This document shows positions 4,901-34,776 of a stretch of 39,847 bases of DNA, piece by piece. The notes beneath the pieces are model-generated. The model was given only the letters and a program-made list of their open reading frames with translations. It did no database searches and was not told the DNA's origin. Both the position numbers and the translations under genes were made by a program. This stretch comes from Acidobacteriota bacterium (GTDB taxonomy: Bacteria > Acidobacteriota > UBA6911): positions 1 to 39,847 of the forward strand of contig JAFGSS010000029.1 of assembly GCA_016934555.1 (NCBI GenBank), given 5' to 3'. Numbering within the stretch: the first letter of the stretch is position 1; every line of letters starts with the position of its first letter.

Positions 4901-7900
4901 GTGATGGAGCCGGCAAGACGCGCATACATCTGTGCATCGGCCTCGGTCGCGTTCAGTTGCCGCAACAGCACCTGGCTGTGTGTCCATGCCAGGTCGAAGA
5001 CGCGATCGGCCATACGTTGATCCTGGTATTTGTCGACCAGAGCCAGGCAGATTGCGCGTGTCTCTCCGACGCCGGTGACTATGTTGACCGTTGCCGTTTC
5101 TTCCGGATCGAGCGCCATGTGACGGCGGATGGCCGCAATCGGATCCAGCACGGACCCCTCGCTGCCGGAGAGCTCCCATGCGCCCGTCATCGCATGCGGA
5201 TCGGCGACCGTATGTCCCCGGCCCAGGAACGCCATCCGATCGGTTTCATAGGAGACCGCCCCGCCCTCAACTCCGTGGACCGCCACCAGGTGAAACATCC
5301 ATGGCGCCTTTTCCTCGACGGAGCGGGGCCGGCGTGTGGCTAGAATCGCGTGTTGCGGGCGGACGATTTCGGTCTGCACGAAAAGATTGCTGAATGCGGG
5401 ATGCAGCGCGTCGGCGGCGGGCGAAGCGAGGGCGATCTCGGCGTAGCTCGTCACATCGAGCGCCCTTCGTATCCTGGACCGGTTCGTGATGTGGATCCGG
5501 CGCAGTTCTATGTCGTCTTCGGGGGATACGGCGATCTCGGTATGCGTGTCCAGATCGCGGCCGCTGGTGCGGAACTCGGCCCGTCCCTCCGAGAATACCG
5601 CTTCGTAGGTCTGGGACCGCCTGGGCGCCGGCTGGCAGGTATTGGCCCAGAATTTTCCGGTGGTCGTGTCGCGGATATAGCAGAAGGTCCCCCAGTTGTC
5701 GCAGGTCGTGTCTTCGCGCCAGCGCGTGACGGACAGGTCCTTCCAGCGGCTGTACCCGCCGCCCGCGTTGGTGACCATCACGTGATACCTGCCGTTGGAT
5801 AACAGCTGCACCTCCGGTATGGGAGTATCCGGGTTGTGGAAAACCCGCACCGGTGTTTCGATGCCTTCGGCCGTAGTGCCGAAATCGGGACTCTCGGCGG
5901 TCCGGGAGTAGAAGGCCATTGCCCTGGGGACGCGCTCCTGGAGCAACAGCATCGTTGCCTGGAAGGACACATCCGATTGGAATCGCTTCTGCATCGGTCG
6001 GCCCAGAAGCAGGTGGGCCAGGGAAAGCAGGCTCATGCCCTGGTGGTGGACCATGAAGGATCGAACCAGCCCATGCGGTTGTCCCCGGGGCACGCGCGAA
6101 GGCGTGTAGTCGATCGCTTCGTAGAACCCGTATTTCCCCTCGAACCCTTCCGCGGCAAGAGTCTGGAGATTCAGGCAAGCCTCTTCGGGCGCCACCATCA
6201 GCGCCAGCGCGGAAGCATAGGGGGCTACCACCATATCGTCGGCCAGGCCGCGCTTGAGTCCCAGGCCGGGTACTCCAAACGCGCGGTACTGGTAGTTGAG
6301 ATGGACGTCGATCGCGTTGTAGCCGGATTCGGAAATGCCCCAGGGGACCTCACGTTTTTTGCCATAGGCTATCTGGCGGTCCACGGCCGCGATGCAGGAG
6401 CGGTCCAGCAGCGTATTGTCGTAGGAGGGCATGACGAGGAGAGGCATGAGGTACTCGAACATGGAACCACTCCACGAAAGCAGAACCGGCTTGCCGTCGG
6501 CGGCGGTGAGCAGGCGACCCAGGGCGAACCAGCTCTCCTGCGGAAGTTTTCCCTGCGCTATGGCGACAAAACAGCACAACCGGGCCTCGGAGGCCAGCAG
6601 GTCGTAATAGCTCGAGTCGCGCCGATGTTCGGTAACGTTGTACCCTATGGTCAGCAGATGGGAGGCTTTGTCGAAGAGAAAGTCGTATTCGATATCTGCA
6701 AGTTCGCCCGATATCCTCACCATCCGTTCAATGGCGGTCATTCTTGCGCTCGCCCGCCTGGCGGCCTCCGCCGCGAGTTGCCTGAAGCCGGGCGGATCTT
6801 CCGGGGCTCCCGCGACGGCTCCCGGGTCCCGGCCGGCCGGAGTCAGGGGCGGCAAGGGCGCGCCGAGGCCCGCCAGTTGCCGGAGTGTCGGGATTCCGTC
6901 GATGCCTGGGATCTCCGGCGTGCTCTCGGGAGACGTCGGCGGCAGGACCCAGGGGGCAAGATAGGTCAATTCCTCGAAGGCCAGCCTGCATTGCCGGAGG
7001 AGGGCGAGGGCCCACAATTGCGACTGGCTTTCGGTGCTCCCGGTGCCGAAGGCGTCGACGAGAACCGAGGCGGAGGCGGTCAGCCGTTCCAGCTGGCGGC
7101 AGGCCGCCATGAGGGTCGTCGGGCGGGAACCGGAGGCGAGATCCTTCTGCATCCTTGCGAGCTCCCCGGGAGCGGCTCCCCCCGCCGCGTCCGCTAGGAT
7201 GCGCAGCGTGTCGTTCAGCCCGTCGAACAGTTGCGGGCCCACGATCGCGTTATCGGGAAGTGCCAGCAGCCCCTGCCGCAGGGTAAGCAGGTGACCCGCG
7301 AGGTTGCCGCTGTCGACCGTCGAAATATACATGGGCAACAGGGGTTTCAGGGATTGCGTGTCATACCAGTTGTAGAAATGGCCGCGATGGCGTTCCAACG
7401 CTCCCATGGTATGAAGCGCCTTCTCGGTGCGTTCCATGAGTTGTCCCGCCGGAATGTAACCGAAATCGAAGGCGGACAGGTTTGAGAGCAACGCAAGTCC
7501 CATGTTGGTCGGTGAGGTGCGGTGGGCCAGGGTGGCGGCGGGATGCTCCTGATAGTTGTCCGGCGGCAGCCAATGATCCTCCGGGCCGACGAATGTTTCG
7601 AAGTAGGCCCAGGTTTTGCGCGCGAGCTTCCGCAGGAAGAGGATCTGGACGGCGGTCAGTTGTGCGGTACGGCGAGCCGGCGGCCGGCTGAACCACCAGG
7701 CGCAGAAGGGCGAGACAAACCAGAGCGCGAGCAGGGGGGCGGCCGATCCCAGCGCGGCCGGCCGCGAAAGCGCCAGAAGAGCGGCGGCGGCGGCCGCGAC
7801 GGCCGGGCCGATCCACAGGGCCCGGCAAAAGGCGACGAGGCCCCCGTGGTCCCGGGGATTCGGCTGGCCGGAGGGGCTCCATTCGAGAAGGCGCCTGTGC

Positions 7901-10689
7901 GCCAGCAGCATCCGCCAGACGGTGCGTACGATCGCGTCCAGGCTGAAGTACATTTCGTAAGGAAGGCATACCAGAGAGAACGCAGACTGTGCCAAATGCC
8001 TGGTGGCGCCGCGCGCCACGGTGGCGATGTGCTGCCGCAGCAATACATCGGCGGGCTTTTGAATCAGGTCCAGAATGCAGGCCGTCAGTGAGGGAATCAG
8101 AAGGATCCCGATGACCGACAGGAGCCAGGCTCCGGGTGACCGCAAGCCCGCCCAACCGAACAGCAACAGGGCCGTCAGCGCCGGAGGTACCAGGCTGCGG
8201 CGAAGATTGTCCGCGATTTTCCATGCCGAAAGGGCGCTGATCGGGTTTCTCCGGCGCCGCCCTTCAAACGCGGGAACGCGGGGCAGCAGCCATCCTGCAA
8301 TTTGCCAATCCCCTCGAATCCAGCGGTGACGGCGGCGCACGTCCATGCCGTATCCCGAAGGATATTCATCGAACAGTTCCACATCGCTCAACAGGCCCGA
8401 CCTTGCGTAGCAGCCTTCCAGGAGATCGTGGCTCAGGATGCGGTTCTCCGGGAAATGTCCATGAATGGCTCTTTCGAATGCATCAACGTCGTAAATGCCT
8501 TTGCCGATAAAGGAGCCCTCGCGGAACAGGTCCTGATACACGTCCGAGACCGCGCGGGTATAGGGGTCGATGCCGGGCTCACTCCCGAAAAGACGCGCAT
8601 ATCGAGACCGGTTCACGCTGGGCAGACTCGCCGCCACGCGCGGCTGGAGGATGCCGTACCCGTCCCTTATGCGCTGTGCCTCCTCGTCATACACGGCGCG
8701 ATTCAGGGGATGCGCCATGCTGCCCACCAGCTTCCACGCGGAAGCTCGCGGCAGTTGCGTGTCCGTATCGAGCGTAATCACATACTTCACGTTCGATAAG
8801 ACCGAAGTGTCGCCGAGCACGGCGGTGAAAGGGTTTTCCGGGCCGCCGCGCAGAAGGGCGTTCAAATCCGTCAGCTTCCCGCGCTTGCGCTCATAGCCCA
8901 TCCAAACTCGCTCGTGGGGATTCCACCGGCGCCCGCGGTGAAACAGAAAGAACGGCGTGCCTTCAGCGCTCCCGTATTTTGCGTTCAGCTCTCCGATTCC
9001 ATTTCGGGCGCTCCGTAAAAGCGGTTCATCCCCGGGAGCCGTTTCTTCCGGAGCGTCGAGGAAATCGGTCAGGAGGCCGAAGTGAAGGTTCCGGTCCCGG
9101 TTCGCCAGGAATCGTACCTCGAGCGCTTCGACCAGGTCCTCGATGCCTTGAATATCCGTAAGCATGGTCGGGATCACAACCAGCGAGCGTGATTCCGGAG
9201 GAATCCCTTTTGAAAAGTCCATCCGCGGCAGCAGGTGCGGCGGTACCAGAAGCGCCGCCAGGCGGTTTACGAGCGCGACCGCCAGATGGCTCCCGCCCAA
9301 CAACGAGAGGGTGCCGATCAGGGCAAGCGGCCAGTGGTTCCATCCCCCCGCATGAGCCAGCGCCGTCAGCCACCCGGCGATAGCCGCGGTGAGCAGGAGG
9401 ATGGCGGCCAGGTAGAGGGGGAGCGCGAACCGGCTGGCCATGCGATCCATAATCCCGGACAGGGATCGGCTCACTTCGCAGGCGCGTTCGAGCTCCTGCA
9501 ATCCCTTGTCGATCAGGTAGAAGCCGACGTGAGCCTCTCGATGGTCGATCCCTTTGTGTGCAGCGGCGTCGAGTGCCAGTTGGACGGCGCTGCCGGCAAC
9601 CTCCTGCTCGGACCGGGGGCTGTTTTTGGCCATCCTCTCGACTGCATGACGGTAGCGATCGCGGGTGAAGAAATCCATCCTGCCGTAAGCTCCTCCCGGA
9701 TCCCGGCGCAGGGTCTGCTCGACGACACTCATCGTCTCGACGAATTCCCGCCAGTCCATCGTTGCCAGGAAACGGAGGCTGCCGATGCTGTTGCCAATGG
9801 ATACCTGATCGGCGGCCTGTTGCTGATTTTCGGACTGCACCAGCTTGTCGATCGTCAGGCTCGTTTCGGAGAGCTGCTGTTCGATCCAGGTAAGGGGGAG
9901 TGCCAGGGCCGCGCTCTGTCCCTGCAACCGGCGCGCAAACTCCGCGACAAACGAACTGCATATCGGGGGATGGGAACGGGCCATGTCGGCGATTGCCAGA
10001 ATCAGGTCCTTGGGATTCCGGTCGGCGACTTCCAGCATCCGGTCCGCCCAGTAGTCGGCGAAGTTGCGGTCTGTCCGGTCGATGGCGATCCGCAGCGCGA
10101 TGCGGCGCAGGTTTTCAATCAGCGCCAGACGCAGCATGATCGGGATCGCCCACAGTTCGCCCAGTTTCAGGGGAGTTTCGGTCTGGTAGGCCGCTACAAA
10201 ACCGCCGAGGCTCTCGCTGTCCACCCGGCCGTCGCCATGGGCGATCGTTTCCAGGGCAATGTCATAAACGCGCGGGAGTCCCGCCGAGAGGCCATCGCGC
10301 AGGCGCGGAAGTTCTGCGCTGTACCCCTTTGGCAGATGTCGTCTGGCGGTGCTTATCTGCTCTTCGATCAGATAGAAGTTGTCGAGCAGCCACTCGCCCG
10401 CCGGCGTAATCCGGCGGCTGTCCCGGACGGCATCCTCGAGCAGGTTCCGGACCTCGACGAGGACTCTTTCGTTCTCCGCCAGCCGGGTAAGGAGGCGGCC
10501 TGCCTTGCCTCCCACGCTCAATGTGTGCAGGCGCGCCAGGGTCCTGCCATACGGCTCCATCTGTGCGCGGCTGAAGAGCTCGGATCGCAGCAGGGGCTCG
10601 TTGTTCTTATATTTCCGCGCCGGGCCATGTCGGCGGGGTCTTTTCCGCGATGGCCCCAGATTCCCGATAAATGACAAGATGGGCTTCAA
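1963..10689 (-). CDS. ndvB: Cyclic beta-1,2-glucan synthase, NdvB-type (GT84-glycoamylase-GH94)
   Basis: The protein has about 2,908 residues from TTG 10689, which has AGGGGGAG 8 nt upstream; the usual length of this family is 2,800-2,900. An in-frame ATG at 10869 would add 60 atypical residues. The layout is an N-terminal helical region opening with PLLRSELFSRAQMEPY, membrane helices (near residue 440 and again near 870-1,100), a GT84 glycosyltransferase domain with the DTDTQLPR acid motif near residue 641 and RRHRWIRGDWQI, a glycoamylase-like domain (about 1,330-1,560), a paired beta-sandwich region, and a C-terminal GH94 phosphorylase domain with GSGDWNDGMN near 2,580. In known systems the inner-membrane enzyme polymerises UDP-glucose into beta-1,2-glucan, trims it by phosphorolysis and cyclises it; the products are periplasmic glucans for osmoadaptation and host contact. 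No NdvA-type exporter is in the window. It is divergent from the sugar transferase. Confidence 0.95.
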   Translation of the reverse strand: MKPILSFIGNLGPSRKRPRRHGPARKYKNNEPLLRSELFSRAQMEPYGRTLARLHTLSVGGKAGRLLTRLAENERVLVEVRNLLEDAVRDSRRITPAGEWLLDNFYLIEEQISTARRHLPKGYSAELPRLRDGLSAGLPRVYDIALETIAHGDGRVDSESLGGFVAAYQTETPLKLGELWAIPIMLRLALIENLRRIALRIAIDRTDRNFADYWADRMLEVADRNPKDLILAIADMARSHPPICSSFVAEFARRLQGQSAALALPLTWIEQQLSETSLTIDKLVQSENQQQAADQVSIGNSIGSLRFLATMDWREFVETMSVVEQTLRRDPGGAYGRMDFFTRDRYRHAVERMAKNSPRSEQEVAGSAVQLALDAAAHKGIDHREAHVGFYLIDKGLQELERACEVSRSLSGIMDRMASRFALPLYLAAILLLTAAIAGWLTALAHAGGWNHWPLALIGTLSLLGGSHLAVALVNRLAALLVPPHLLPRMDFSKGIPPESRSLVVIPTMLTDIQGIEDLVEALEVRFLANRDRNLHFGLLTDFLDAPEETAPGDEPLLRSARNGIGELNAKYGSAEGTPFFLFHRGRRWNPHERVWMGYERKRGKLTDLNALLRGGPENPFTAVLGDTSVLSNVKYVITLDTDTQLPRASAWKLVGSMAHPLNRAVYDEEAQRIRDGYGILQPRVAASLPSVNRSRYARLFGSEPGIDPYTRAVSDVYQDLFREGSFIGKGIYDVDAFERAIHGHFPENRILSHDLLEGCYARSGLLSDVELFDEYPSGYGMDVRRRHRWIRGDWQIAGWLLPRVPAFEGRRRRNPISALSAWKIADNLRRSLVPPALTALLLFGWAGLRSPGAWLLSVIGILLIPSLTACILDLIQKPADVLLRQHIATVARGATRHLAQSAFSLVCLPYEMYFSLDAIVRTVWRMLLAHRRLLEWSPSGQPNPRDHGGLVAFCRALWIGPAVAAAAAALLALSRPAALGSAAPLLALWFVSPFCAWWFSRPPARRTAQLTAVQILFLRKLARKTWAYFETFVGPEDHWLPPDNYQEHPAATLAHRTSPTNMGLALLSNLSAFDFGYIPAGQLMERTEKALHTMGALERHRGHFYNWYDTQSLKPLLPMYISTVDSGNLAGHLLTLRQGLLALPDNAIVGPQLFDGLNDTLRILADAAGGAAPGELARMQKDLASGSRPTTLMAACRQLERLTASASVLVDAFGTGSTESQSQLWALALLRQCRLAFEELTYLAPWVLPPTSPESTPEIPGIDGIPTLRQLAGLGAPLPPLTPAGRDPGAVAGAPEDPPGFRQLAAEAARRASARMTAIERMVRISGELADIEYDFLFDKASHLLTIGYNVTEHRRDSSYYDLLASEARLCCFVAIAQGKLPQESWFALGRLLTAADGKPVLLSWSGSMFEYLMPLLVMPSYDNTLLDRSCIAAVDRQIAYGKKREVPWGISESGYNAIDVHLNYQYRAFGVPGLGLKRGLADDMVVAPYASALALMVAPEEACLNLQTLAAEGFEGKYGFYEAIDYTPSRVPRGQPHGLVRSFMVHHQGMSLLSLAHLLLGRPMQKRFQSDVSFQATMLLLQERVPRAMAFYSRTAESPDFGTTAEGIETPVRVFHNPDTPIPEVQLLSNGRYHVMVTNAGGGYSRWKDLSVTRWREDTTCDNWGTFCYIRDTTTGKFWANTCQPAPRRSQTYEAVFSEGRAEFRTSGRDLDTHTEIAVSPEDDIELRRIHITNRSRIRRALDVTSYAEIALASPAADALHPAFSNLFVQTEIVRPQHAILATRRPRSVEEKAPWMFHLVAVHGVEGGAVSYETDRMAFLGRGHTVADPHAMTGAWELSGSEGSVLDPIAAIRRHMALDPEETATVNIVTGVGETRAICLALVDKYQDQRMADRVFDLAWTHSQVLLRQLNATEADAQMYARLAGSITYANSSLRADASILVRNARGQSGLWGYAISGDLPIVLVRIADRANIDLVRRLVQAHAYWRLKGLAVDMVIWNEDHAGYRQGLQEQILGLVAAGTEANVADRPGGVFVRTAEQMSEEDRILLQTVARAIISDGRGSLADQIDGHSPVASIPPNLTPARMRPTEIAPSAPQPRPDLLFFNGLGGFTPDGREYVITTSQGQAAPAPWTNVLANPMFGTIVSESGGACTWGDNAREFRITPWNNDPVSDSSGEAFYLRDEERGPFWSPTPLPSPGATPYASRHGFGYSVFEHAEFGIRTEMWVYVALDAPVKFTVLKVRNESGRTRRLSATGYLEWVLGDLRSKSAMHIVTEVDPDGTALFARNPFNVEFADRVAFFDVDQASRSFSGDRREFLGRNGTLRSPAAMKRSGLSGRVGAALDPCAAVQVPFELADGQECEILFRLGAGRDAHDARALAHRFRGPAAARRELEAVWHYWNHTLGAVQVETPDRSLDVLANGWLLYQTIASRLWARTGFYQPGGAFGFRDQLQDVMALIHAEPRLVREHLLRSAARQFPEGDVQHWWHPPSGRGVRTHCSDDFLWLPLATSRYVSSTGDTGVLEEPVPFIEGRPVGAEEDSYYDLPAPSEERASLYDHCVRSILRGLRFGEHGLPLIGSGDWNDGMNLVGEHGRGESVWLGFFLHEVLRRFEPVARGHGDVPFSERCRLEADAVRRNLELNGWDGAWYRRAYFDDGSPLGSAGNPECQIDSIAQSWAVLSGAGEVERSRMAMEAVDRRLVRRDHGLVQLLDPPFDTSGMNPGYIKGYVPGVRENGGQYTHAAIWAAMAFAALGDSRRAWELLPMINPINHAMTSDSVAVYKAEPYSVAADIYALSPHTGRGGWTWYTGSAGWMYRLVLESLLGLKLEADTLSFAPCLPADWKTYTIHYRYRETVYHITVLQTHGEKGAMTVTVDGIRQEGPYVSLVDDRREHTVEAKVSVVGGGRKG

Positions 10690-10723
10690 TGCAGGTCTCC
10701 CCCTTTTGTGCCGGAATTTTCCC

Positions 10724-10746
10724 CGGACCCATCGGGGATGGGACCG
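10724..10746. promoter_or_regulatory. Inverted repeat in the glucan synthase leader
   Basis: The arms CGGaCCCATC and GATGGGaCCG surround GGG, symmetric apart from one A/A pair, 34 nt upstream of the TTG start of the glucan synthase and inside the 249-nt divergent region shared with the sugar transferase. It could be an operator or an mRNA stem-loop. No convincing -35/-10 pair was found in this intergenic region on either strand. Confidence 0.4.
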
Positions 10747-10938
10747 ACTGACAGGACTTGTACCATGAGGGCACGGGGGCGTCAGTTCACTATTGCACAC
10801 AAAGGGGTGGATCGAAGTCTCCGTTACCCTGCGTCCGGAGTGAGCAAATGTGGACATAGGCGTGTGCAAACGGGTGCAGATTTAAAAAGCGCTTCGGAAA
10901 TAATGGGGGAGGCTGCAACACACCCGAGGCACGTCATC

Positions 10939-13182: not shown

Positions 13183-16100
13183 ATGCGGCGATTGACGCGG
13201 CGCTCGCAGGGGATGCATAATCCACAAGTCCATTCGGGTTTCGAAGACACTGACGCGGCTCAAGAAACGAAGGCAATCGTGGGAAGCCCCAAAAAAATGT
13301 CGCGGAGCACCGCCGCCGCCGATCCGGGGGCGGCGGAGAACAAAGCGGACGGGAAGGCCGGATCAGCCGAAGCCCTGCCGGAAGGCGACACCCCGGGCGC
13401 GGGCGACCGCGAGGATGAGGATGCGCGGATACCGGCCGCATTCCCCATCGTCGGAATCGGTGCATCCGCCGGGGGGCTGGAGGCCTTTAAGGGACTCCTG
13501 CAACACCTCCCGGTCGACGCCGGTATGGCCTTCGTCTTCGTCCAGCATCTCGCTGCCGGGCATGCCAGCATGCTGCCTTCGCTCCTGTCCCGGACCACGA
13601 AGATGCCTGTTTTGGAGGTCCGGCACGGCATGCCGGTGGAGCCCGACCGCGTTTACATCATCCCCGCCAACACGTTGATGAGCGTTGCCTCCGGCGTCCT
13701 GAAACTGGAACCTCGTCCGGAGGAGCACGGGGCGCCGAGGCCGATCGACTACTTCCTCCGCTCCCTGGCGGCGGACCGGAAAGCGGACGCGATCGGGGTG
13801 ATCATGTCGGGCGCGGATTCGGATGGCGCCCTGGGTCTTCAGGCCATACGTGACGAGGGCGGCATCGCGATCGTTCAATCCGAGAGTTCGGCCAGGCATC
13901 CCGAAATGCCGAGAGCCGCCCTCGCAGCCGGGGTCGTGGATTTGGTGTTGTCCCCGGAGGAAATAGGGGACGCGCTGGGGAGGTTCGGAAGGAAGCCTTC
14001 GCCGACCGGAGAGGAATTATCGGGGGATCCCGCCAATGAGCGCGGCGAAGAAGATCCGCTGAACCGGATCCTGGCGCTGGTCAGGGGCGCCTCCGGCGTC
14101 GATTTTCGAGGCTACAAGCGTGGAACCGTCCAGCGACGCATCCATCGCCGAATGATTCTGCAAGGGCACGAGGATTTGGAGACCTACGGTTCGGTCCTGG
14201 AGTCCCATCGCTCGGAACTGCAGATGCTGTTCGAGGACATGCTCATCCCGGTCACCGGCTTCTTCCGCGATCCCGAAACTTTTCAGGCGCTCCAGGACCG
14301 TTTGCTGCCCCGTTTGTGGCGCGAACGGGAAGCGGGTAAACCCCTGCGCCTGTGGGTGCCCGGCTGTTCGACGGGCGAGGAAGCCTACTCGATCGCCATG
14401 TGCCTGATCGAAACCATGCAGGCATCGTCAGTATCGCCCCCCGTTCAGATTTTCGCCACCGACCTCAGCGAGCATGGAATTTCGGCCGCCCGGGCCGCCA
14501 TCTACCCGGAGCGGCAGGTCGCCAGGCTCTCACCGGAACGAAAGGCGCGCTTTTTCCGGCGCGTGGAAAACGGCTATCAGGTCATCAAGCCGATTCGCGA
14601 AATGTGCGTCTTCGCGCGCCACAATCTGCTGGCGGACCCGCCGTACTCCCGTCTGGATCTGATCAGCTGCCGGAATGTCCTGATCTATCTCCGCGCGGAT
14701 TTGCAGAGCAGGGTGATGGCCACCTTTCACTTTGCCCTGAGGCCGGGAGGCTATCTTCTGTTGGGTCATTCGGAAGGAGTGCAACGCTTCGAGGAGTTGT
14801 TTGCGGCGATGGATGCCCAGCACAAGGTTTACGTCAGGAAGCCCGGCGGCGAGCATGGCGGCATGGAAATCGTGCGCGGGAGCGCCGCGGGGGAACCGCC
14901 CGGAAACCTCACCCCGGCGCCCTCCTGCCGTCGGCAGAGAACGGAGCAGGGGGAACTGGAGAAGGCGGCCGAACGTCTCGTCCTGTCCGAGTACGGACCG
15001 GCATGGGTGATCGTGAACGATCGTTTTGAAATTCTGCACGTGCAGGGGGATACCAGTTCCTTTTTACGGCTGGCACCCGGCCGGGCCACGCATGACTTGA
15101 TGAAAATGACCCGGGAATGCATTCGGGGCGAGTTGCGGAAGTTGATGGCCCGGGCAAGGAGTGAAAAGCACCGGATTCAGTCGGCCGTTTTTCAGGCGAG
15201 CGACGGCGGCGAAATCCGCAGCATCCGGCTGGAGGTGCGTCGGATCGCCGGTTCGGAGGGGCAGGACGGCCGATGGCTGGTTTTGTTCTTTGCCCCGGGA
15301 TCCGACAAGGAAATGGAGCCCGGGGGGTTCCGAAGCGGCCAGGCGCGCCCGGACTCCGGGGCGGATGCCATCGAGGTGGAGCGGCTCCGACAGGAACTCC
15401 TGCTGACCAGCCAGCATATGCAGTCCCTGATTGATGAACGGGACGCGGCCAACCAGGATATCACTTCCGCAAATGAGGAAATCCAGTCCAGCAACGAGGA
15501 ACTGCAGAGCATCAACGAGGAGCTGGAAACTTCGAAAGAGGAGCTGCAGGCAAGCAACGAGGAACTCAACACCCTTAACGAAGAACTGCATAACCGGAAC
15601 AGGGAATTGAGCCGCCTCAGCGACGACCTGTCCAATCTTCTGAGCAGCACCACCATACCGATTTTGATGCTCGACAACGAATTGCACCTGCGCAGGGTGA
15701 CGGCCGCGGCCGAAAAGAGCTTCCATATTCGGGCCGGCGACATCGGGCTGCCGTTTGAGAGCATCCGGCGGCGGCTGAAGGTCGATGGCCTGGAGCCGAT
15801 GATGCGGCGCGTGATGGAGACGCTGAGCGCGGAAGAGCTGGAGGTGCAGGATCTCGACCAACGCTGGTATCAATTGGCCATCCGCCCGTACCGGACCGCG
15901 GGCAACCGGATCGAGGGCGTGGTGCTCACACTCATCGACATCGACCAGATCCGGCAAGCGCAGATCCGGGCCGACGCCGCGCGTGATTTCGCGGAGTCGG
16001 TGGTCGAGTCGGTGCAAACGCCCCTGGTGGTGCTGCGCGGCGACCTGCGGATCAGGAAGGCGAACCGCGCCTTTTGCGAGTCCTACGGATTGGAGGCTGC

Positions 16101-17097
16101 GGAAATCGAAAACCGGTTCTTTCACGAGATCGACGGCGGCCGGTGGAACCTGTCCGGACTCCAAAGCGCCTTGAGGCGGCTTCCCGCAAAACAGGAACGG
16201 CTCGAAAAATACGAGCTCGAACTCGCGTTCCCCGGATTGGGCAGGAGACAGCTCCTGGTGAGTGCGCAAAGCGTCCAACCTGAAGGCGAGAACCAGATCC
16301 TGGTCGCGATGGCGGATATCACCTCCCAGAAACGGGCGGAGCTCGTTCTGATCGACGAACAGGAGCGGTTGAAGCGCAACCTGGAGTTCGAGAAAGCGGC
16401 CCTTCATGAGACCGAAGCCGCCCTGTTACGGAGTCGCAATGACCTGCGGGCGCTCACGGCGAAGCTCCTGTATGCGCAGGCGGAAGAGCGCCGGCGGGTA
16501 TCCAGGGAGTTGCACGACGATTTGAGCCAACAGCTGGCCAAGCTGCAGTTTGACGTGGAGACGATGGAGCAGCACCTTCCTTCGGACTCCGGGGAAATGA
16601 GGGAAAAGCTGCTGAATATGCGCGACGGGGTGGAGAGCCTCTCCAATGATATCCGGCGGATCGCCTATGAACTGCATCCGTCGGCACTCGATCACCTCGG
16701 CCTCTCCGTTGCGCTGCGCTCTCACATCCGGGAGTTCATGGAACGAGAGGGAATCACGGTCCGCTTCACCACTCGAAAGGTTCCGGCCAAAATCCCCGCC
16801 GAAGTCGCCAACACCCTGTATCGCATCGCTCAGGAAGCGCTCCGCAATGTCGCCAAGCATGCAGGCAAAACGGCCGTCAGGATGGCGCTGACCGGGGGCG
16901 GGAACCAGTTATCCCTCGTTATCCGGGACGATGGAATCGGATTTGACGTGCATTCGGCGCAGGACAAGGAGGGACTGGGACTGATCAGCATGCAGGAACG
17001 GGCGCGCCTGGTCCAGGGGGACTTCTCACTGGAGACCCTGCCCGGACGCGGCGCGACCATTACGGTCCGGGTACCTCTGGATTTGCAGGAAGCCTAG
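13183..17097 (+). CDS. CheB-CheR-PAS-histidine kinase fusion protein
   Basis: The frame has 1,304 codons. The start is uncertain: ATG 13183 has no ribosome-binding site, GTG 13279 has GAAGG at 5 nt, and ATG 13297 is also possible; the first 85 residues are low-complexity. Domains: CheB methylesterase-like (about 86-265; GIGASAGG with Ser95, VQHL with His122, GADSDGALG with Asp214) without a receiver domain; CheR methyltransferase-like (about 300-560; PVTGFFRDPETF, VPGCSTGEEAYSIA, LLADPPYSRLDLISCRNVLIY); a repeated NEELQSINEELETSKEELQ coiled coil near 765-810; two PAS-like domains; and a HisKA_3 kinase (ELHDDLSQQLAKLQ, His1111; ATPase with DDGIGFDV and GLGLISMQERA). The family couples chemotaxis-type adaptation enzymes to phosphorelay in one cytoplasmic polypeptide. 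The cognate response regulator starts on the next base. Confidence 0.95.
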   Translation: MRRLTRRSQGMHNPQVHSGFEDTDAAQETKAIVGSPKKMSRSTAAADPGAAENKADGKAGSAEALPEGDTPGAGDREDEDARIPAAFPIVGIGASAGGLEAFKGLLQHLPVDAGMAFVFVQHLAAGHASMLPSLLSRTTKMPVLEVRHGMPVEPDRVYIIPANTLMSVASGVLKLEPRPEEHGAPRPIDYFLRSLAADRKADAIGVIMSGADSDGALGLQAIRDEGGIAIVQSESSARHPEMPRAALAAGVVDLVLSPEEIGDALGRFGRKPSPTGEELSGDPANERGEEDPLNRILALVRGASGVDFRGYKRGTVQRRIHRRMILQGHEDLETYGSVLESHRSELQMLFEDMLIPVTGFFRDPETFQALQDRLLPRLWREREAGKPLRLWVPGCSTGEEAYSIAMCLIETMQASSVSPPVQIFATDLSEHGISAARAAIYPERQVARLSPERKARFFRRVENGYQVIKPIREMCVFARHNLLADPPYSRLDLISCRNVLIYLRADLQSRVMATFHFALRPGGYLLLGHSEGVQRFEELFAAMDAQHKVYVRKPGGEHGGMEIVRGSAAGEPPGNLTPAPSCRRQRTEQGELEKAAERLVLSEYGPAWVIVNDRFEILHVQGDTSSFLRLAPGRATHDLMKMTRECIRGELRKLMARARSEKHRIQSAVFQASDGGEIRSIRLEVRRIAGSEGQDGRWLVLFFAPGSDKEMEPGGFRSGQARPDSGADAIEVERLRQELLLTSQHMQSLIDERDAANQDITSANEEIQSSNEELQSINEELETSKEELQASNEELNTLNEELHNRNRELSRLSDDLSNLLSSTTIPILMLDNELHLRRVTAAAEKSFHIRAGDIGLPFESIRRRLKVDGLEPMMRRVMETLSAEELEVQDLDQRWYQLAIRPYRTAGNRIEGVVLTLIDIDQIRQAQIRADAARDFAESVVESVQTPLVVLRGDLRIRKANRAFCESYGLEAAEIENRFFHEIDGGRWNLSGLQSALRRLPAKQERLEKYELELAFPGLGRRQLLVSAQSVQPEGENQILVAMADITSQKRAELVLIDEQERLKRNLEFEKAALHETEAALLRSRNDLRALTAKLLYAQAEERRRVSRELHDDLSQQLAKLQFDVETMEQHLPSDSGEMREKLLNMRDGVESLSNDIRRIAYELHPSALDHLGLSVALRSHIREFMEREGITVRFTTRKVPAKIPAEVANTLYRIAQEALRNVAKHAGKTAVRMALTGGGNQLSLVIRDDGIGFDVHSAQDKEGLGLISMQERARLVQGDFSLETLPGRGATITVRVPLDLQEA

Positions 17098-17748
17098 ATG
17101 AGACCGCGATTGCTGCTGGCCGACGACCACACGCTGTTGCTGGAGGGAATCCGGTTGATGCTGGAACCGGAGTTCGATCTGGTGGGAAGCGTGGAGGACG
17201 GGCAGGCGCTTCTGGCCGCGGCAAAGAAACTGAAGCCCGACATCATCCTTCTCGATATCTCCATGCCGCTCCTGAACGGCATCGACGCGGCGCATCGGCT
17301 GCGTAAGATGGTGCCCTCGGCGCGGTTGATCTTTCTGACCATGCACGCGGGCGCGGATTATGTCGCCGAAGCATTCCGGGCGGGGGCGAGGGGGTACCTG
17401 TTGAAGAGATCGGCGGCCTCGGAATTGCTCGCCGCCATCCGGGCGGTATTGAAGGGGGACCATTACGTGAGCCCGCTCGTGACCCGAAACGCGCTGGAAT
17501 TGCTGATTTCATCAGCGAAACCGGGGAGCAAATTCTCCGATCGCATGAGCCCGCGCCAGCGGGAGGTTCTGCAACTGGTGGCCGAAGGGCGAAGCCGCAA
17601 GGAAATTGCCTCCATCCTGAATATTTCCGTGAAAACCGTCGAGTATCACAAGTCGAAGCTCATGCGCGAACTGAATCTGCAGGGCGCGGCGGATTTCACG
17701 CGCTATGCCATCGAGCACGGCATCATCATGCCCGAGCGCTCTTCCTGA
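17098..17748 (+). CDS. NarL/FixJ-family response regulator
   Basis: The protein has 216 residues; the ATG immediately follows the kinase stop codon, so the two are translationally linked and form a kinase-regulator pair. The receiver domain (1-120) shows the acidic pair DD at 9-10, phosphoacceptor Asp53 in IILLDISMP, a switch Thr in FLTMHAG and the conserved Lys in YLLKRSA. The C-terminal LuxR-type helix-turn-helix (about 150-210) reads SPRQREVLQLVAEGRSRKEI, ILNISVKTVEYHKSKLMREL. It is expected to bind DNA as a dimer when phosphorylated by the HisKA_3 kinase upstream. The targets are unknown; the glucan synthase and sugar transferase are plausible by location only. Confidence 0.95.
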   Translation: MRPRLLLADDHTLLLEGIRLMLEPEFDLVGSVEDGQALLAAAKKLKPDIILLDISMPLLNGIDAAHRLRKMVPSARLIFLTMHAGADYVAEAFRAGARGYLLKRSAASELLAAIRAVLKGDHYVSPLVTRNALELLISSAKPGSKFSDRMSPRQREVLQLVAEGRSRKEIASILNISVKTVEYHKSKLMRELNLQGAADFTRYAIEHGIIMPERSS

Positions 17749-29808: not shown

Positions 29809-31431
29809 ATGTATCTCAAATACTTTGATCTGGAGGAACCCCCGTTTTCCCTGACCCCGGACCCGCAGTATCTCTTCATGAGCGGGCGGCACAGGGAAGG
29901 GCTCGCCCACCTCCTTTACGGGGTGCAGCAACCGGGCGGCTTCGTGCAGCTGACGGGGGAAATCGGGTCGGGGAAGACCACCCTCTGCCGCTGCCTGATC
30001 CGGCAGCTGCCCCCTGACACCGATATCGCGCTGATCCTCAACCCCCGCCTTACGGTGACGGAACTGCTCGCCGCGGTCTGCGACGAGCTCCGGATCCCCT
30101 ACCCGGAGAAGACGGCGAGCGTCAAGGTTCTGGTCGACGCCTTGAACGGGCGGTTGCTGGAGTCGCACGCCCTCAGGCGCCGGACGGTCCTCATCATCGA
30201 CGAGGCGCAGAACCTCGACGGTGACGTGCTCGAACAGGTCCGGCTGCTGACCAACCTGGAGACCGCCCGGGAGAAGCTCCTGCAGATCATCCTGATCGGG
30301 CAGCCGGAGCTGCTCCGCATCCTCGGGAGCCGCCGGCTGCGGCAGCTGTCGCAGCGCATCACGGCCCGCTATCACCTCGAGCCCCTGTCGCGCAGGGAGA
30401 CTTATGCCTACGTCCGGCACCGGCTCCTGGTCGCCGGGAGGAGGGAGCCGCTCTTCACCCGGTGGGCGCTCCGGAGCGTATACGCCCGCAGCCGGGGGGT
30501 GCCGCGCGTCATCAACATCATCTGCGACCGGGCCCTGCTCGGGGCCTATGCCCAGGACCGGAAGAAGATCGGCGCCGGCATCGTGCGCCGGGCCAGCAGG
30601 GAAACCCGGGGACAGGTCCCGCTCCGCGCCAGGTTCAGGCCCGCCCTGGCGGCCGGGATCGTGCTCGCCCTCCTCCTGGTCGCCGCCGGGGCCTGGCTGT
30701 TCAGCCCCGCGGCCCGTTCCCGCAATGGGGGCCAGGCCCCCGCCGCGGCCCGGAGGACTCCGGGCCCGACCGTCCCACCGCCGGCGGACGCTTCGTCCCC
30801 CGTCCCGGCCGGAGGGGGGACGGCGATGTCGCTCGAGGCCGCGCTTGCCGGCGCCGGCAATACCGATGCCGCGAGCTTCACCGCCCTGTACCGGCTCTGG
30901 GGCGCGGAGATCCCGGTCGCTTCCCCCGATTCGGGCTGCCGGGAGGGAGGGCGCGAGGGGTTCGCATGCCTCTTTCTGAACGGCAACTGGTCGAAACTGC
31001 GCCGATACAACCTCCCGGTGATCCTGGAACTGGTGATGCCCGGAGGGGGGCGCCACCGGGTGACGCTGGTGGAACTGGCGGAAGGATCGGCCCTGCTCGA
31101 TATCGGGGGGCGCCGGCGGGAGGTTCCGCTCGATGAGATCGACCGGTTGTGGGACGGGGCCTTTATCCTCCCCTGGAAGCCCCCGTTCCCCGTGCGCATC
31201 CTTTCGGCCGGGATGCGGGGGGAGGACGTGGGGTGGATCCGCAACACCCTCGACCGGCTGGAGGGAGGCACTCCCTCCCCGGGGGACCCGCTCCTGTTTG
31301 ACGGGGACCTCGAGCAACGCATCATGGCTTTTCAAAAGAGAAAAGGGTTGATTCCAGACGGGATGGCCGGCTCGGAGACCCTGGCCCGCCTCCTGCTGGA
31401 TCTCGACCGGGGGCCTGCGCTGAGGCGATAG
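29809..31431 (+). CDS. gspA: ExeA/GspA-type AAA ATPase with C-terminal peptidoglycan-binding domain
   Basis: The protein has 540 residues from ATG 29809. It begins MYLKYFDLEEPPFSLTPDPQ, the hallmark start of ExeA-like ATPases. Residues 1-270 form an AAA domain: Walker A GEIGSGKTTL (about 50-59), Walker B VLIIDEAQNLD, sensor-like LIGQPELLRIL and GVPRVINIICDRALLGAY. One membrane helix follows (about 280-305, AAGIVLALLLVAAGAWLF), then a Pro/Ala linker and a periplasmic part with a family-specific domain (about 345-450) and a C-terminal peptidoglycan-binding domain (LDRLEGGTPSPGDPLLFDGD, AFQKRKGLIPDGMAGSETLA). ExeA with ExeB/GspB helps place the type II secretin through the peptidoglycan layer. 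GspB follows after 1 nt. The pilus genes 4 kb downstream are a possible partner machine. Confidence 0.92.
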   Translation: MYLKYFDLEEPPFSLTPDPQYLFMSGRHREGLAHLLYGVQQPGGFVQLTGEIGSGKTTLCRCLIRQLPPDTDIALILNPRLTVTELLAAVCDELRIPYPEKTASVKVLVDALNGRLLESHALRRRTVLIIDEAQNLDGDVLEQVRLLTNLETAREKLLQIILIGQPELLRILGSRRLRQLSQRITARYHLEPLSRRETYAYVRHRLLVAGRREPLFTRWALRSVYARSRGVPRVINIICDRALLGAYAQDRKKIGAGIVRRASRETRGQVPLRARFRPALAAGIVLALLLVAAGAWLFSPAARSRNGGQAPAAARRTPGPTVPPPADASSPVPAGGGTAMSLEAALAGAGNTDAASFTALYRLWGAEIPVASPDSGCREGGREGFACLFLNGNWSKLRRYNLPVILELVMPGGGRHRVTLVELAEGSALLDIGGRRREVPLDEIDRLWDGAFILPWKPPFPVRILSAGMRGEDVGWIRNTLDRLEGGTPSPGDPLLFDGDLEQRIMAFQKRKGLIPDGMAGSETLARLLLDLDRGPALRR

Positions 31432-31432
31432 C

Positions 31433-32092
31433 ATGTCGTACATACTGGATGCATTGAAAAAGGCGGAACGGGAGCGGGGGCTGGCGCGGGTGCCGGACCT
31501 CGGCTCCGTTCACACGGAGCCCCAGGCACCGCGCCGCGGCAGGTGGATCGTGAGTGCGGTCGCCCTGGCCGTCCTGATCGCCCTCCTTTGGGCTTTCTAC
31601 CCCAGGGCCGACCGCGACATGCGGCTTGCGGCGGAACCGCCCGAGGGGGGGGCGGTCGCCGCCGGACCGGTTGCGGCGCCGGCGCCCGCCGGGGAGCCTC
31701 CAGCCGCCGGGCGCGGGGAGGAAGGGGCGCGGCGGCAGGCAACGCCGCCCGCCGCGCCGGTCGCCGCTTCCGTACCCCGGCAGGCCGCACCCCCGGCCCC
31801 GGCGCCCGGGCCGCCCGCGACCCGGAATCCACCGGCGCCGGTCTCCGCCGCCACGCCGGCCACGCCCGCCTCGCCCGTCCCCGACATTCCTCTTCGCGAC
31901 GCGGTGGCGGGGATGACCCTGAGCGTTCATATGTACAGCGAGCAACCGGAGGACCGCATGGTCTTCATCAACGGGAGACGCTACGTCGAAGGGGAGCTGG
32001 TCGACAGGAGGTACCTGCTCGAAAGCATCACACCCGAGGGGGCGGTGCTGCGCCTGGGCGGGGAGAGGGAGATCGTGCGCCCGGGAAACTGA
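31433..32092 (+). CDS. gspB: General secretion pathway protein B-like (GspB)
   Basis: The protein has 219 residues; the ATG begins 1 nt after the gspA stop, so translation is probably coupled. The start MSYILDALKKAERERGLARV is the standard GspB/ExeB N-terminus, cytoplasmic, followed by one membrane helix (about 38-58, WIVSAVALAVLIALLWAF). A long Pro/Ala-rich linker (about 65-145) probably spans the periplasm, and the C-terminal 65 residues form the GspB C domain (LSVHMYSEQPEDRMVFINGR, YVEGELVDRRYLLESITPEG, VLRL). It works with ExeA to organise or protect secretin assembly. The linker is unusually Pro/Ala/Gly-rich, partly reflecting the GC content. Confidence 0.9.
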   Translation: MSYILDALKKAERERGLARVPDLGSVHTEPQAPRRGRWIVSAVALAVLIALLWAFYPRADRDMRLAAEPPEGGAVAAGPVAAPAPAGEPPAAGRGEEGARRQATPPAAPVAASVPRQAAPPAPAPGPPATRNPPAPVSAATPATPASPVPDIPLRDAVAGMTLSVHMYSEQPEDRMVFINGRRYVEGELVDRRYLLESITPEGAVLRLGGEREIVRPGN

Positions 32093-32127
32093 CCGGACGC
32101 GGGGGTTTTCATCAAAGGAGGCGCCCC

Positions 32128-33903
32128 ATGGCACGACAGGGAGGAAAACCGACGACATCGCTGGTTACGGTCCTGGACCCGCGCGGGCAGCCCACGGCCG
32201 AGGTGGGGCCCCGCCCCCTGGCCCCCCGCCTGGACACCCTGCGGGGCCGGACGGTCTATTTCATCGACGTCGGGTTCGGAGGGGGCTGGGAGTTCCTCGA
32301 GGAGGCGGTGGACTGGTTCCGGCGCCATCACCCCGAGGTGAAAACGGTGCTCGAGCGCAAAAAGGGGATCATGTTCGCCGACGAGCCGGAGACGTGGGCC
32401 GAAATCCAACAGAACGGGGACGCCGTGGTCTTCGGCGTGGGGGGTTGAGACGGGTGCACGGCGAGTGTCGCCGCCCATTGCAGGGAACTGGAATCGAAAT
32501 ACGGCCTCCCCACCGCGCCGCTGGCCAGCGCCCGCTTCGCCGACTACGCGGAGCGCGACGCCCTCAACCACGGGATGAAGCTGCGCTTCAGCTTCCCCCC
32601 CTATCCCCTCGTGGGCAGGCCACGGGAGGTGCTCCGCCGCTACGTCGAGGGGAACGACGCCGTCACCGGGCGCCCGCTGATGCCCCAGGTTGTCGAGGCG
32701 CTGACGGCCCCCCTGACCGAGGAGGAGCGGCACCCGCGGGCGGCCCGCCGGGCCCCCCGCCCGAGGCTGCTCCAGCCGGACACGGAGGAGAACCTCCACC
32801 GGCTCTTCCTCGAAAACGGCTGGACCGACGGGGCCCCCATCGTCCTGCCCACGGAGGAAAGGGTGGCGCACGCCCTCACCGGGACCGCGGCCGATCCCGG
32901 TGAGGTGGTGGGGCGCCTGTCGGTCACCATCCACCAGGAGAAGCTCGAATACACGGTGGAGAAGGTGGCCGTGAACGCGGTGATGGCGGGGGCCGGCCCC
33001 GAACACCTCCCCGTGATCCTGGCGCTCGCGGCCAGCGGCGAATGCTCCATGCCCAGTTCCACAACCTCCTTCGGCAGGATGGCGGTGGTGAACGGGCCGA
33101 TCCGGGAGGAGATCGGCATGAATTCGGGCCTGGGCGCCCTCAGCCCCTTCAACCATGCCAACACGGTGATCGGGAGGGCGTGGACCCTCCTGACCCTGAA
33201 CCTGGGGGACGCCCGGCTGGGGGAGACCTTCATGGGGTCGACGGGCAACAACCTGAATTACCAGGACATGCTCTTCGCCGAAAACGAGGAACGCAGCATC
33301 TGGGACCCCTTCCACGTGCGGCAGGGGTTCGGGCGGGACGAAAGCGTCCTCAGCCTCTTCCAGGGGTGGAGCGTCGTCAACAGCATGGGGGCGGCCGGGT
33401 GCCGCCGCCCGGCCGAGGAGGAGACCCTGATCCTCATGAACGCCTTCCCCGCGATACACGGGGCCCTCACCCTGGTCATGGACCCTTTGGTGGCCCGGCA
33501 TCTCGAGGAGCGGGGGTTTGACGGTCCGGAGAGCCTCGCGCGCTACCTGTCGGAAAACTTCCGGATGCCGGCCGGGCAGTTCTGGGGGTCCGACGTCGTC
33601 TATTCCCTGGTGGAGCCCTCCGCGCGTGCCGGGGTGCAGCCCTACGCCTCCTGGCTCGACCTCCCCGGCGACGCGCCCGTCGCCCCCTACACCTCCCCCG
33701 ACAGGATCCACGTCGTGGTGGCGGGCGGGGAAACCCAGGCCCTGTGGCTGACCACCGACATGTGGCACACCGGGTCGGTGTCCATCGACCGGTGGAGGCC
33801 CGAAAGCGGCGTGTACCGGGAGGATGAACGGGCCGCGCGGCGGCGCGAGGCGCGCCGGAAGCGGCATGCGGCCGCGCTCAAGGCTTCCGGCTACGATCTC
33901 TAG
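32128..33903 (+). CDS. UGSC-type selenoprotein with in-frame TGA (selenocysteine) at codon 107
   Basis: One 591-residue product is proposed from ATG 32128 (AAAGGAGG 7 nt upstream) to TAG 33903. Codon 107 (32446-32448) is TGA; every codon before and after is open and in the same frame. The N-terminal part reads LAPRLDTLRGRTVYFIDVGF, GGGWEFLEEAVDWFRRHHPE, KKGIMFADEPETWAEIQ and DAVVFGVGG, then U-D-G-C-T (Sec107, Cys110), ELESKYGLPTAPLASARFAD and FPPYPLVGRP. This fits the UGSC-containing (seleno)protein family with U-x-x-C spacing. The C-terminal part (about 210-591) starts LFLENGWTDGAPIVLPTEER and has STTSFGRMAVVNGPIREEI and WTLLTLNLGDARLGETFMGS. A SECIS-like hairpin follows the TGA. The chemistry is unknown to me; a redox role for the Sec/Cys pair is inferred. 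Automated calling would give two broken genes. Confidence 0.88.
32452..32479 (+). promoter_or_regulatory. Bacterial SECIS-like hairpin after the TGA codon
   Basis: The RNA folds as CGGCGA-GUG-UCGCCG (32459-32473), a perfect 6-bp stem with a GUG apical loop. Outside a 2x2 mismatch, four further pairs or wobbles extend it to 32453-32456 with 32476-32479. Sixteen nt separate the TGA from the loop, and a G opens the loop. Both agree with known bacterial SECIS elements, which bind SelB just downstream of the UGA. Confidence 0.72.
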
Positions 33904-33932
33904 CCCCTTCCCCCGTGTGCTACCATACGGGG

Positions 33933-34454
33933 ATGAGATGGTTTGCGCTGCTGCTGTTGCTCGGGTCCGCGCTGGCCGCGGGGCTCGAAAAGGCGCCCGC
34001 GGAGGAGGGGGTCTACCTGCTCCGCGGGGACGCGGAATGGGTGAAGCTCGAGCCCGCCCCGGTCGCCGGGACGCGGATCCGGGGCCTCGAGACCTTCATC
34101 GAAAGCGGCGGGTACACCCGCTTTTTCGTGGATACCGCGCTTGAGGGGGCGAAGGCCGCGCGGCGCACGACCGATCGCCTCCCCCGTTTTTTCTGCCGCG
34201 GCCCCTTTTCCCCCGCCGACATCCTGATCGTCCGCCTCACGCCCCAGGGGGGGGGGCGGCTCAGCCGGACCTCCCCTGGGGCGGCCTCGATGACGAACAA
34301 GCCGGGATTTCCCCAGGGGGACCTCGTCCGGCTCCGGACGTCGGCCCACGACGACGGTTCCTTCCTGGCCGTCCCCGAGGACCCTCTCCCCCCCGGCGAA
34401 TATCTCCTGGTGACGGACGACATCGGCTCCGGGCGCGATTTCGGCGTCGATTAG
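33933..34454 (+). CDS. Small exported protein of unknown function
   Basis: The protein has 173 residues from ATG 33933; a GTG at 33915 would add six residues before the signal peptide and is less likely. MRWFALLLLLGSALAAGLEK is a clear Sec signal peptide. The mature protein is beta-rich: EEGVYLLRGDAEWVKLEPAP, ETFIESGGYTRFFVDTALEG, then RFFCRGPFSPADILIVRLTP and a C-terminal EDPLPPGEYLLVTDDIGSGR with FGVD. This resembles a family of uncharacterised exported proteins I associate with Acidobacteriota; no catalytic motif is visible. It begins 29 nt after the selenoprotein. No Shine-Dalgarno is evident; a TACCAT hexamer ends 6 nt before the ATG, which could make this mRNA leaderless. Confidence 0.8.
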   Translation: MRWFALLLLLGSALAAGLEKAPAEEGVYLLRGDAEWVKLEPAPVAGTRIRGLETFIESGGYTRFFVDTALEGAKAARRTTDRLPRFFCRGPFSPADILIVRLTPQGGGRLSRTSPGAASMTNKPGFPQGDLVRLRTSAHDDGSFLAVPEDPLPPGEYLLVTDDIGSGRDFGVD

Positions 34455-34506
34455 GCCATTCCGGCCCGGGACCGGTTTATGCTATTTTTTGAGGGGGAGG
34501 AAAACG

Positions 34507-34776
34507 ATGAGCGTTACGGTCCGCATCCCTGCAATCATCCGCCAGTTCGCCGGGCAGGAATCGGAGGTCCGGCTGGAAGGGAAGACGGTGGGCGAGGTCC
34601 TGGAGAACTTCAAGGCCCGGTTCCCCCTGGCAGGGGAGCGCTTCTTCTCGGAGCGCACCCTGCGCTACATGAACCTCTACCTGAACGAGCAGGATGTCCG
34701 CTCCCTCGGCAACCTCGAAACCCCGGTGGGGGACTCGGACGTCCTGTCGATCGTGTTCGCCGTGGCCGGCGGTTAG
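34507..34776 (+). CDS. MoaD/ThiS-family sulfur-carrier-like protein
   Basis: The protein has 89 residues from ATG 34507 with GGGAGG about 7 nt upstream; an ATG at 34489 adds six residues. It is a ubiquitin-like beta-grasp protein: SVTVRIPAIIRQFAGQESEV, VGEVLENFKARFPLAGERFF, NLYLNEQDVRSLG, VGDSDVLSIVFAVAGG. The C-terminal Gly-Gly is the site that E1-like enzymes adenylate and convert to a thiocarboxylate in MoaD, ThiS and CysO, which donate sulfur to molybdopterin, thiazole or cysteine. No E1-like (MoeB/ThiF), MoaE or cofactor gene is next to it, so the pathway is open. It is convergent with the racemase-like gene, with 1 nt between the stops. Confidence 0.9.
   Translation: MSVTVRIPAIIRQFAGQESEVRLEGKTVGEVLENFKARFPLAGERFFSERTLRYMNLYLNEQDVRSLGNLETPVGDSDVLSIVFAVAGG

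Follow-up and report, generated by a model that had tools for sequence, protein, structure and literature searches.

The window (the whole stretch of 39,847 nucleotides analysed, from a contig of an uncultured Acidobacteriota bacterium) carries on its plus strand a gene for a predicted selenoprotein of the UGSC family, at 32128–33903. The sequence reads AAAGGAGGCGCCCC-ATG at 32128, with a ribosome-binding site (AAAGGAGG) and spacer at 32113–32127 (plus strand), and the frame meets a TGA at codon 107 (32446–32448), which by frame and alignments is the predicted selenocysteine (Sec) of a U-D-G-C motif (U107, C110). Beyond this codon there is no further stop until the TAG at 33901–33903, giving a product of 591 residues; paralogs, full-length homologs and a Pfam match all bear on this gene model. 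The product comprises an N-terminal UGSC domain (residues 1–200; 32128–32727), delimited by Pfam, profiles, a structure model and a fold search, and a C-terminal domain (residues about 201–591; 32728–33903), studied by profile, profile-profile and fold searches, which may bind substrate. Re-reading the sequence confirmed what a first-pass annotation had reported of the frame: the start at 32128, the TGA at codon 107, a single open frame to 33903, and an ATG at 32575 that lies 42 codons downstream of the TGA. Under the standard code, gene prediction truncates this gene at residue 106, and the active site of the family is then missed.

The gene sits amid type II secretion and pilus genes, in an order that is syntenic in a congener (G005). 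These neighbours give no functional clue, and no gene that points to a substrate adjoins this copy. Elsewhere, the window encodes a 1304-residue protein with CheB, CheR, PAS and histidine-kinase domains (13183–17097), followed by a LuxR-type response regulator (17098–17748). A 2968-codon open frame occupies 1963–10869 on the minus strand, and its 3' part (1963–3900) encodes glycoside hydrolase family 94 domains.

Because long chance frames are common in GC-rich DNA, an open frame alone is weak evidence; the window has 129 open reading frames of at least 90 amino acids, including one of 628 amino acids on the strand opposite. What lifts this frame above chance is a Pfam UGSC match (PF24696) that runs across the TGA, together with the 13 genes that have a TGA in the same column. 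The match covers residues 14–174 and with 72.1 bits exceeds the cut-off of 25, so that the family name guessed in the first-pass annotation was right. The protein does not reach the equivalog cut-off of the NCBIfam UGSC model NF041046 (45.5 versus 125 bits, far short of it), and neither Pfam nor NCBIfam has a model that matches its C-terminal domain. Selenoproteins of the UGSC type have been known since 2008, among them a fused form with an extra domain (PMC2398784). As a kind, the protein is thus already known, although the family lacks a characterised function.

The window's genome is a draft of 3.25 Mb in 233 contigs, 96.6% complete. Counting the one in the window, it has 13 family genes that contain an in-frame TGA, and in all of them the TGA falls in one aligned column. 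The same TGA is present in an ortholog from a second assembly (L139), and the recurrence of this codon in paralogs, in congener copies and in that ortholog excludes a sequencing error. Homologs with a cysteine aligned at residue 107 were also sought and found, in other bacteria: nine loci (L062, L065, L066, L067, L076, L080, L084, L087 and L107) have TGC or TGT at this position, within a CxxC-type motif. The TGA might instead be a real stop, leaving a pseudogene with a nonsense codon, or else two genes, the second of which could start from the ATG at 32575. However, that start would fall inside the conserved domain, the identical TGA recurs in paralogs and congener copies whose frames are intact beyond it, and silent sites are kept in the hairpin described below; we consider a real stop very improbable. 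Decoding of TGA as Trp, Gly or Cys, genome-wide or through a suppressor tRNA, would likewise keep the frame open, and the cysteine found in homologs would suit it. Yet TGA ordinarily ends the genes nearby, among them the next one upstream (32090–32092), selA, selB and selD are encoded in the genome, and the hairpin occurs in TGA genes and is absent from Cys homologs, which makes this alternative the least credible of all.

The first-pass annotation had predicted that the organism would have SelA, SelB, SelD and tRNA-Sec. The first three were found, with selA, selB and selD all above curated cut-offs; tRNA-Sec was not found in the draft contigs, which is what a real stop would lead one to expect. 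All nine congeners, however, have a tRNA-Sec above cut-off. In G005 it lies at 5284–5382 of locus L162, and the corresponding region of the window's genome is split between the ends of two contigs: C69 (5024 bases) ends at its match to base 5471 of L162, and C82 begins at its match to base 2307, so that the syntenic place of the tRNA gene is lost in a contig gap. The selD gene (L042, G000:C149:344–1273) itself has an in-frame TGA and therefore probably encodes a selenoprotein as well.

Downstream of the TGA, at 32459–32473 on the plus strand, the transcript could fold into a SECIS-like hairpin with a 6-bp stem (CGGCGA/UCGCCG) and the apical loop GUG, the loop lying 16 nt from the UGA. A loop at this distance that starts with G fits the bacterial SECIS model. 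We assessed the hairpin by stem statistics, a codon null and conservation. Of 109 distinct TGA sequences, 83% can form at least five of the six stem pairs, compared with 8% of 13 Cys homologs; fewer sequences pair when the stem is slid to other registers, several stem pairs show compensatory changes, and in 100 of the 109 at least one of the first two bases of the loop is G. Against a null in which the protein is kept and synonymous codons are drawn from the gene's own usage, the mean z of TGA genes is −0.83, which differs from the +0.14 of Cys homologs (p = 0.001) and from the +0.17 of a control segment 60 bases further downstream (p = 1e-11). The window gene's own hairpin is not stronger than this null (z +0.77), and the hairpin evidence is accordingly evidence at the level of the family. 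Within the window gene's subfamily, compared as 12 distinct sequences that come from several phyla, the stretch of unvarying third codon positions coincides exactly with the hairpin, and those outside it vary; one of the invariant codons is the rare serine codon AGT, which encodes 7 of the 225 serines counted in window genes. An Rfam search of 31000–34600 returned a single match, to a togavirus frameshift element, which was below threshold and which we take to be due to chance.

Together, these computational results indicate that the in-frame TGA is almost certainly decoded as Sec by SelA, SelB, SelD and tRNA-Sec with the help of the downstream hairpin, yielding one UGSC selenoprotein of 591 residues. 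The first-pass annotation had read the locus as one gene with TGA as Sec rather than as two fragments, and the paralogs, the Cys homologs, the hairpin and the sel genes all support it in this.

Family members are unusually concentrated in this genus. Each of its nine other genomes searched has 11–26 family matches, nearly always with just one TGA in frame, whereas a search of further genera from the same family, class and phylum gave 0–2. In the family tree, a quick tree with long branches that should be read with care, the copies of the window's genome are scattered over many separate clades, most of which hold relatives from Myxococcota, Chloroflexota, Pseudomonadota or other Acidobacteriota. 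Because so many of these clades have relatives elsewhere, the paralog set appears to be old and diverged rather than the product of a recent tandem burst. A hydrophobic N-terminal export signal is predicted in 11 of the 13 copies, the exceptions being the window copy and L010. A single uncultured genus thus devotes Sec to more than ten diverged copies of one family; by way of background, the largest selenoprotein set among the bacteria of a 2025 study comprised at least 46 genes, counting all families (PMC12013277).

Some relatives carry no Sec. A divergent paralog in the window's genome (L022, G000:C76, open reading frame on the minus strand at 1045–2754) has Met-Gly-Thr-Ser in place of U-x-x-C and so lacks both redox residues, and further Sec-less relatives occur in L058, L059, L094 and L121. 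Family members were also found in bins named Actinobacteria (75–78% identity to the window protein) and Klebsiella pneumoniae (L045, L053 and L071), which are probably misnamed or mixed.

To place the N-terminal domain structurally, we used an AlphaFold2 model, which is confident both at full length (pLDDT 93.7) and for this domain alone (93.5). In the model, Sec107 lies between a strand (99–105) and a helix (108–123). A fold search with the domain returned flavodoxin/Rossmann-type matches, and thioredoxin was absent from the top 50. GrdB is selenoprotein B of glycine/sarcosine/betaine reductase. Profile alignment with hhalign matched the UGSC N-terminal domain to the domain that carries Sec in GrdB-type proteins, with a probability of 95.5 and an E-value of 1.4e-8 (for a single comparison, like all our hhalign E-values), aligning Sec on Sec over about 70 columns around this residue. 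The probability was still 92.2 when Sec and C110, the cysteine at +3, were masked; as controls, the best of 30 column-shuffled profiles reached about 0.2, and reversing the template gave 0.8. GrdB-type sequences were extended past their TGA for this alignment, as Pfam GRDB matches end short of the Sec. The NCBIfam models for GrdB and GrdF also pick up one member of the family, at about 1e-4, and none of the 14 family proteins of the window's genome matches PF07355. We conclude that Sec very probably stands at the tip of strand 99–105 and the start of helix 108–123, within a domain of flavodoxin/Rossmann-like fold that shares ancestry with the Sec domain of GrdB. This predicted fold differs from that put forward in 2008, when the UGSC family was suggested to be thioredoxin-like (PMC2398784).

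Two observations concern GrdB-type proteins themselves. Matches to PF07355 (GRDB) in L173, L174 and L177 end one residue before the Sec codon, and searches built on this model therefore miss the active site. Three other loci (L175, L176 and L178, from Chloroflexota and Bacillus dakarensis) encode short proteins with a GrdB-type Sec domain and a U-P-x-C motif, outside the usual GrdB.

The C-terminal domain gave no alignment with GrdB, and the pyruvoyl proprotein GrdE was rejected as a relative (probability 0.2); within the window, no GrdE gene was seen beside this copy. Among solved structures, sequence searches yielded no credible relative of the window protein, and fold searches yielded generic flavodoxin/Rossmann matches for the N-terminal domain only, with no convincing match for the full-length model.

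Among 79 family loci, 16 have a thioredoxin-reductase-like gene. These loci belong mainly to Pseudomonadota, all of them outside the window's genus, and in most the gene directly adjoins the family gene on the same strand. Family genes of Chloroflexota and Bacillota have CoA transferases and parts of peptide-type ABC transporters among their neighbours.

From the relation to GrdB and the reductase neighbours we infer a mechanism for the protein, whose most likely function, by analogy, is that of a reductase with a Sec nucleophile and an attached substrate domain. A small substrate would be held by the C-terminal domain; the selenolate would attack its activated C–N or C–X carbon, or another oxidised group; C110 would resolve the oxidised Sec, forming a selenenyl-sulphide; and a thioredoxin-reductase-like flavoprotein, or some other donor of thiols, would reduce this again. 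The thirteen copies, which have diverged and of which eleven carry export signals, would serve different substrates. This sequence of selenolate attack, resolution by C110 and re-reduction is modelled on GrdB and PrdB, and we regard the chances that it holds here as evenly balanced. The broader explanation, a UGSC Sec reductase related to GrdB and equipped with a substrate domain, is in our judgement probable.

Two other functions deserve consideration. If the protein were a thioredoxin-like redox protein with a general disulfide, peroxide or repair function, as the 2008 proposal for UGSC would have it, the UxxC motif and the thioredoxin-reductase-like neighbours in one clade would follow naturally; the confident model, however, alternates strands and helices without the thioredoxin arrangement, the fold search yields flavodoxin/Rossmann-type proteins, and the profile alignment ties the N-terminal domain to GrdB, so that this function seems unlikely. 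Alternatively, Sec might bind a metal, selenium or another inhibitor, for detoxification or sensing mostly in the periplasm, and reduce no substrate. Such a role would sit well with the many predicted export signals, with the soft selenolate/thiol pair and with a window copy that has no metabolic operon around it. It accounts poorly for the homology to a catalytic Sec domain, the large conserved domain attached and the flavoprotein reductase neighbours in one clade, and we consider it just as unlikely as a thioredoxin-like role. As for the array of 11–26 genes per genome in the genus, we suggest, with considerable reserve, that its members might be selenoenzymes related to GrdB, most of them exported, whose substrate domain has a new fold and which each act on a different small organic compound, cleaving it reductively. 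If this were true, the genus would have in its periplasm an equivalent of the Stickland-type or reductive-dehalogenase repertoires.

Compared with known systems, the window protein agrees with the UGSC family (PF24696, NF041046) in its N-terminal domain, its UxxC motif and the exchange of Sec and Cys at the same residue; some members of that family also carry a fused extra domain (PMC2398784). It differs from the UGSC NCBIfam model in its motif (UDGC rather than UGSC) and in its length (591 residues versus a model of 147 positions), and its genome is set apart by 13 copies. Neither the genus-wide multiplication of the UGSC family nor its relation to GrdB appears in the literature that we searched, and the latter offers testable chemistry for a family that has been without a function since 2008. 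With GrdB (PF07355) and the D-proline reductase protein PrdB, the protein shares a Sec that comes after a strand and opens a helix, a Cys at +3 and, after this motif, (V/I/L)E-x-x-G-(I/L)P; unlike GrdB, whose motif is UxxCxxC, it lacks the Cys at +6, and it also lacks the N-terminal half of GrdB. GrdB-like proteins with a predicted Sec have been proposed to cleave the C–F bond of fluoroacetate (PMC10838667). The fluoroacetate reductase FarB, a GrdB homolog of Cloacibacillus, resembles the window protein in being of GrdB type, with a predicted Sec and a proposed C–X cleavage, but FarB is itself a GrdB with a GrdE-like partner in its operon, and the comparison between FarB and UGSC proteins runs through GrdB only.
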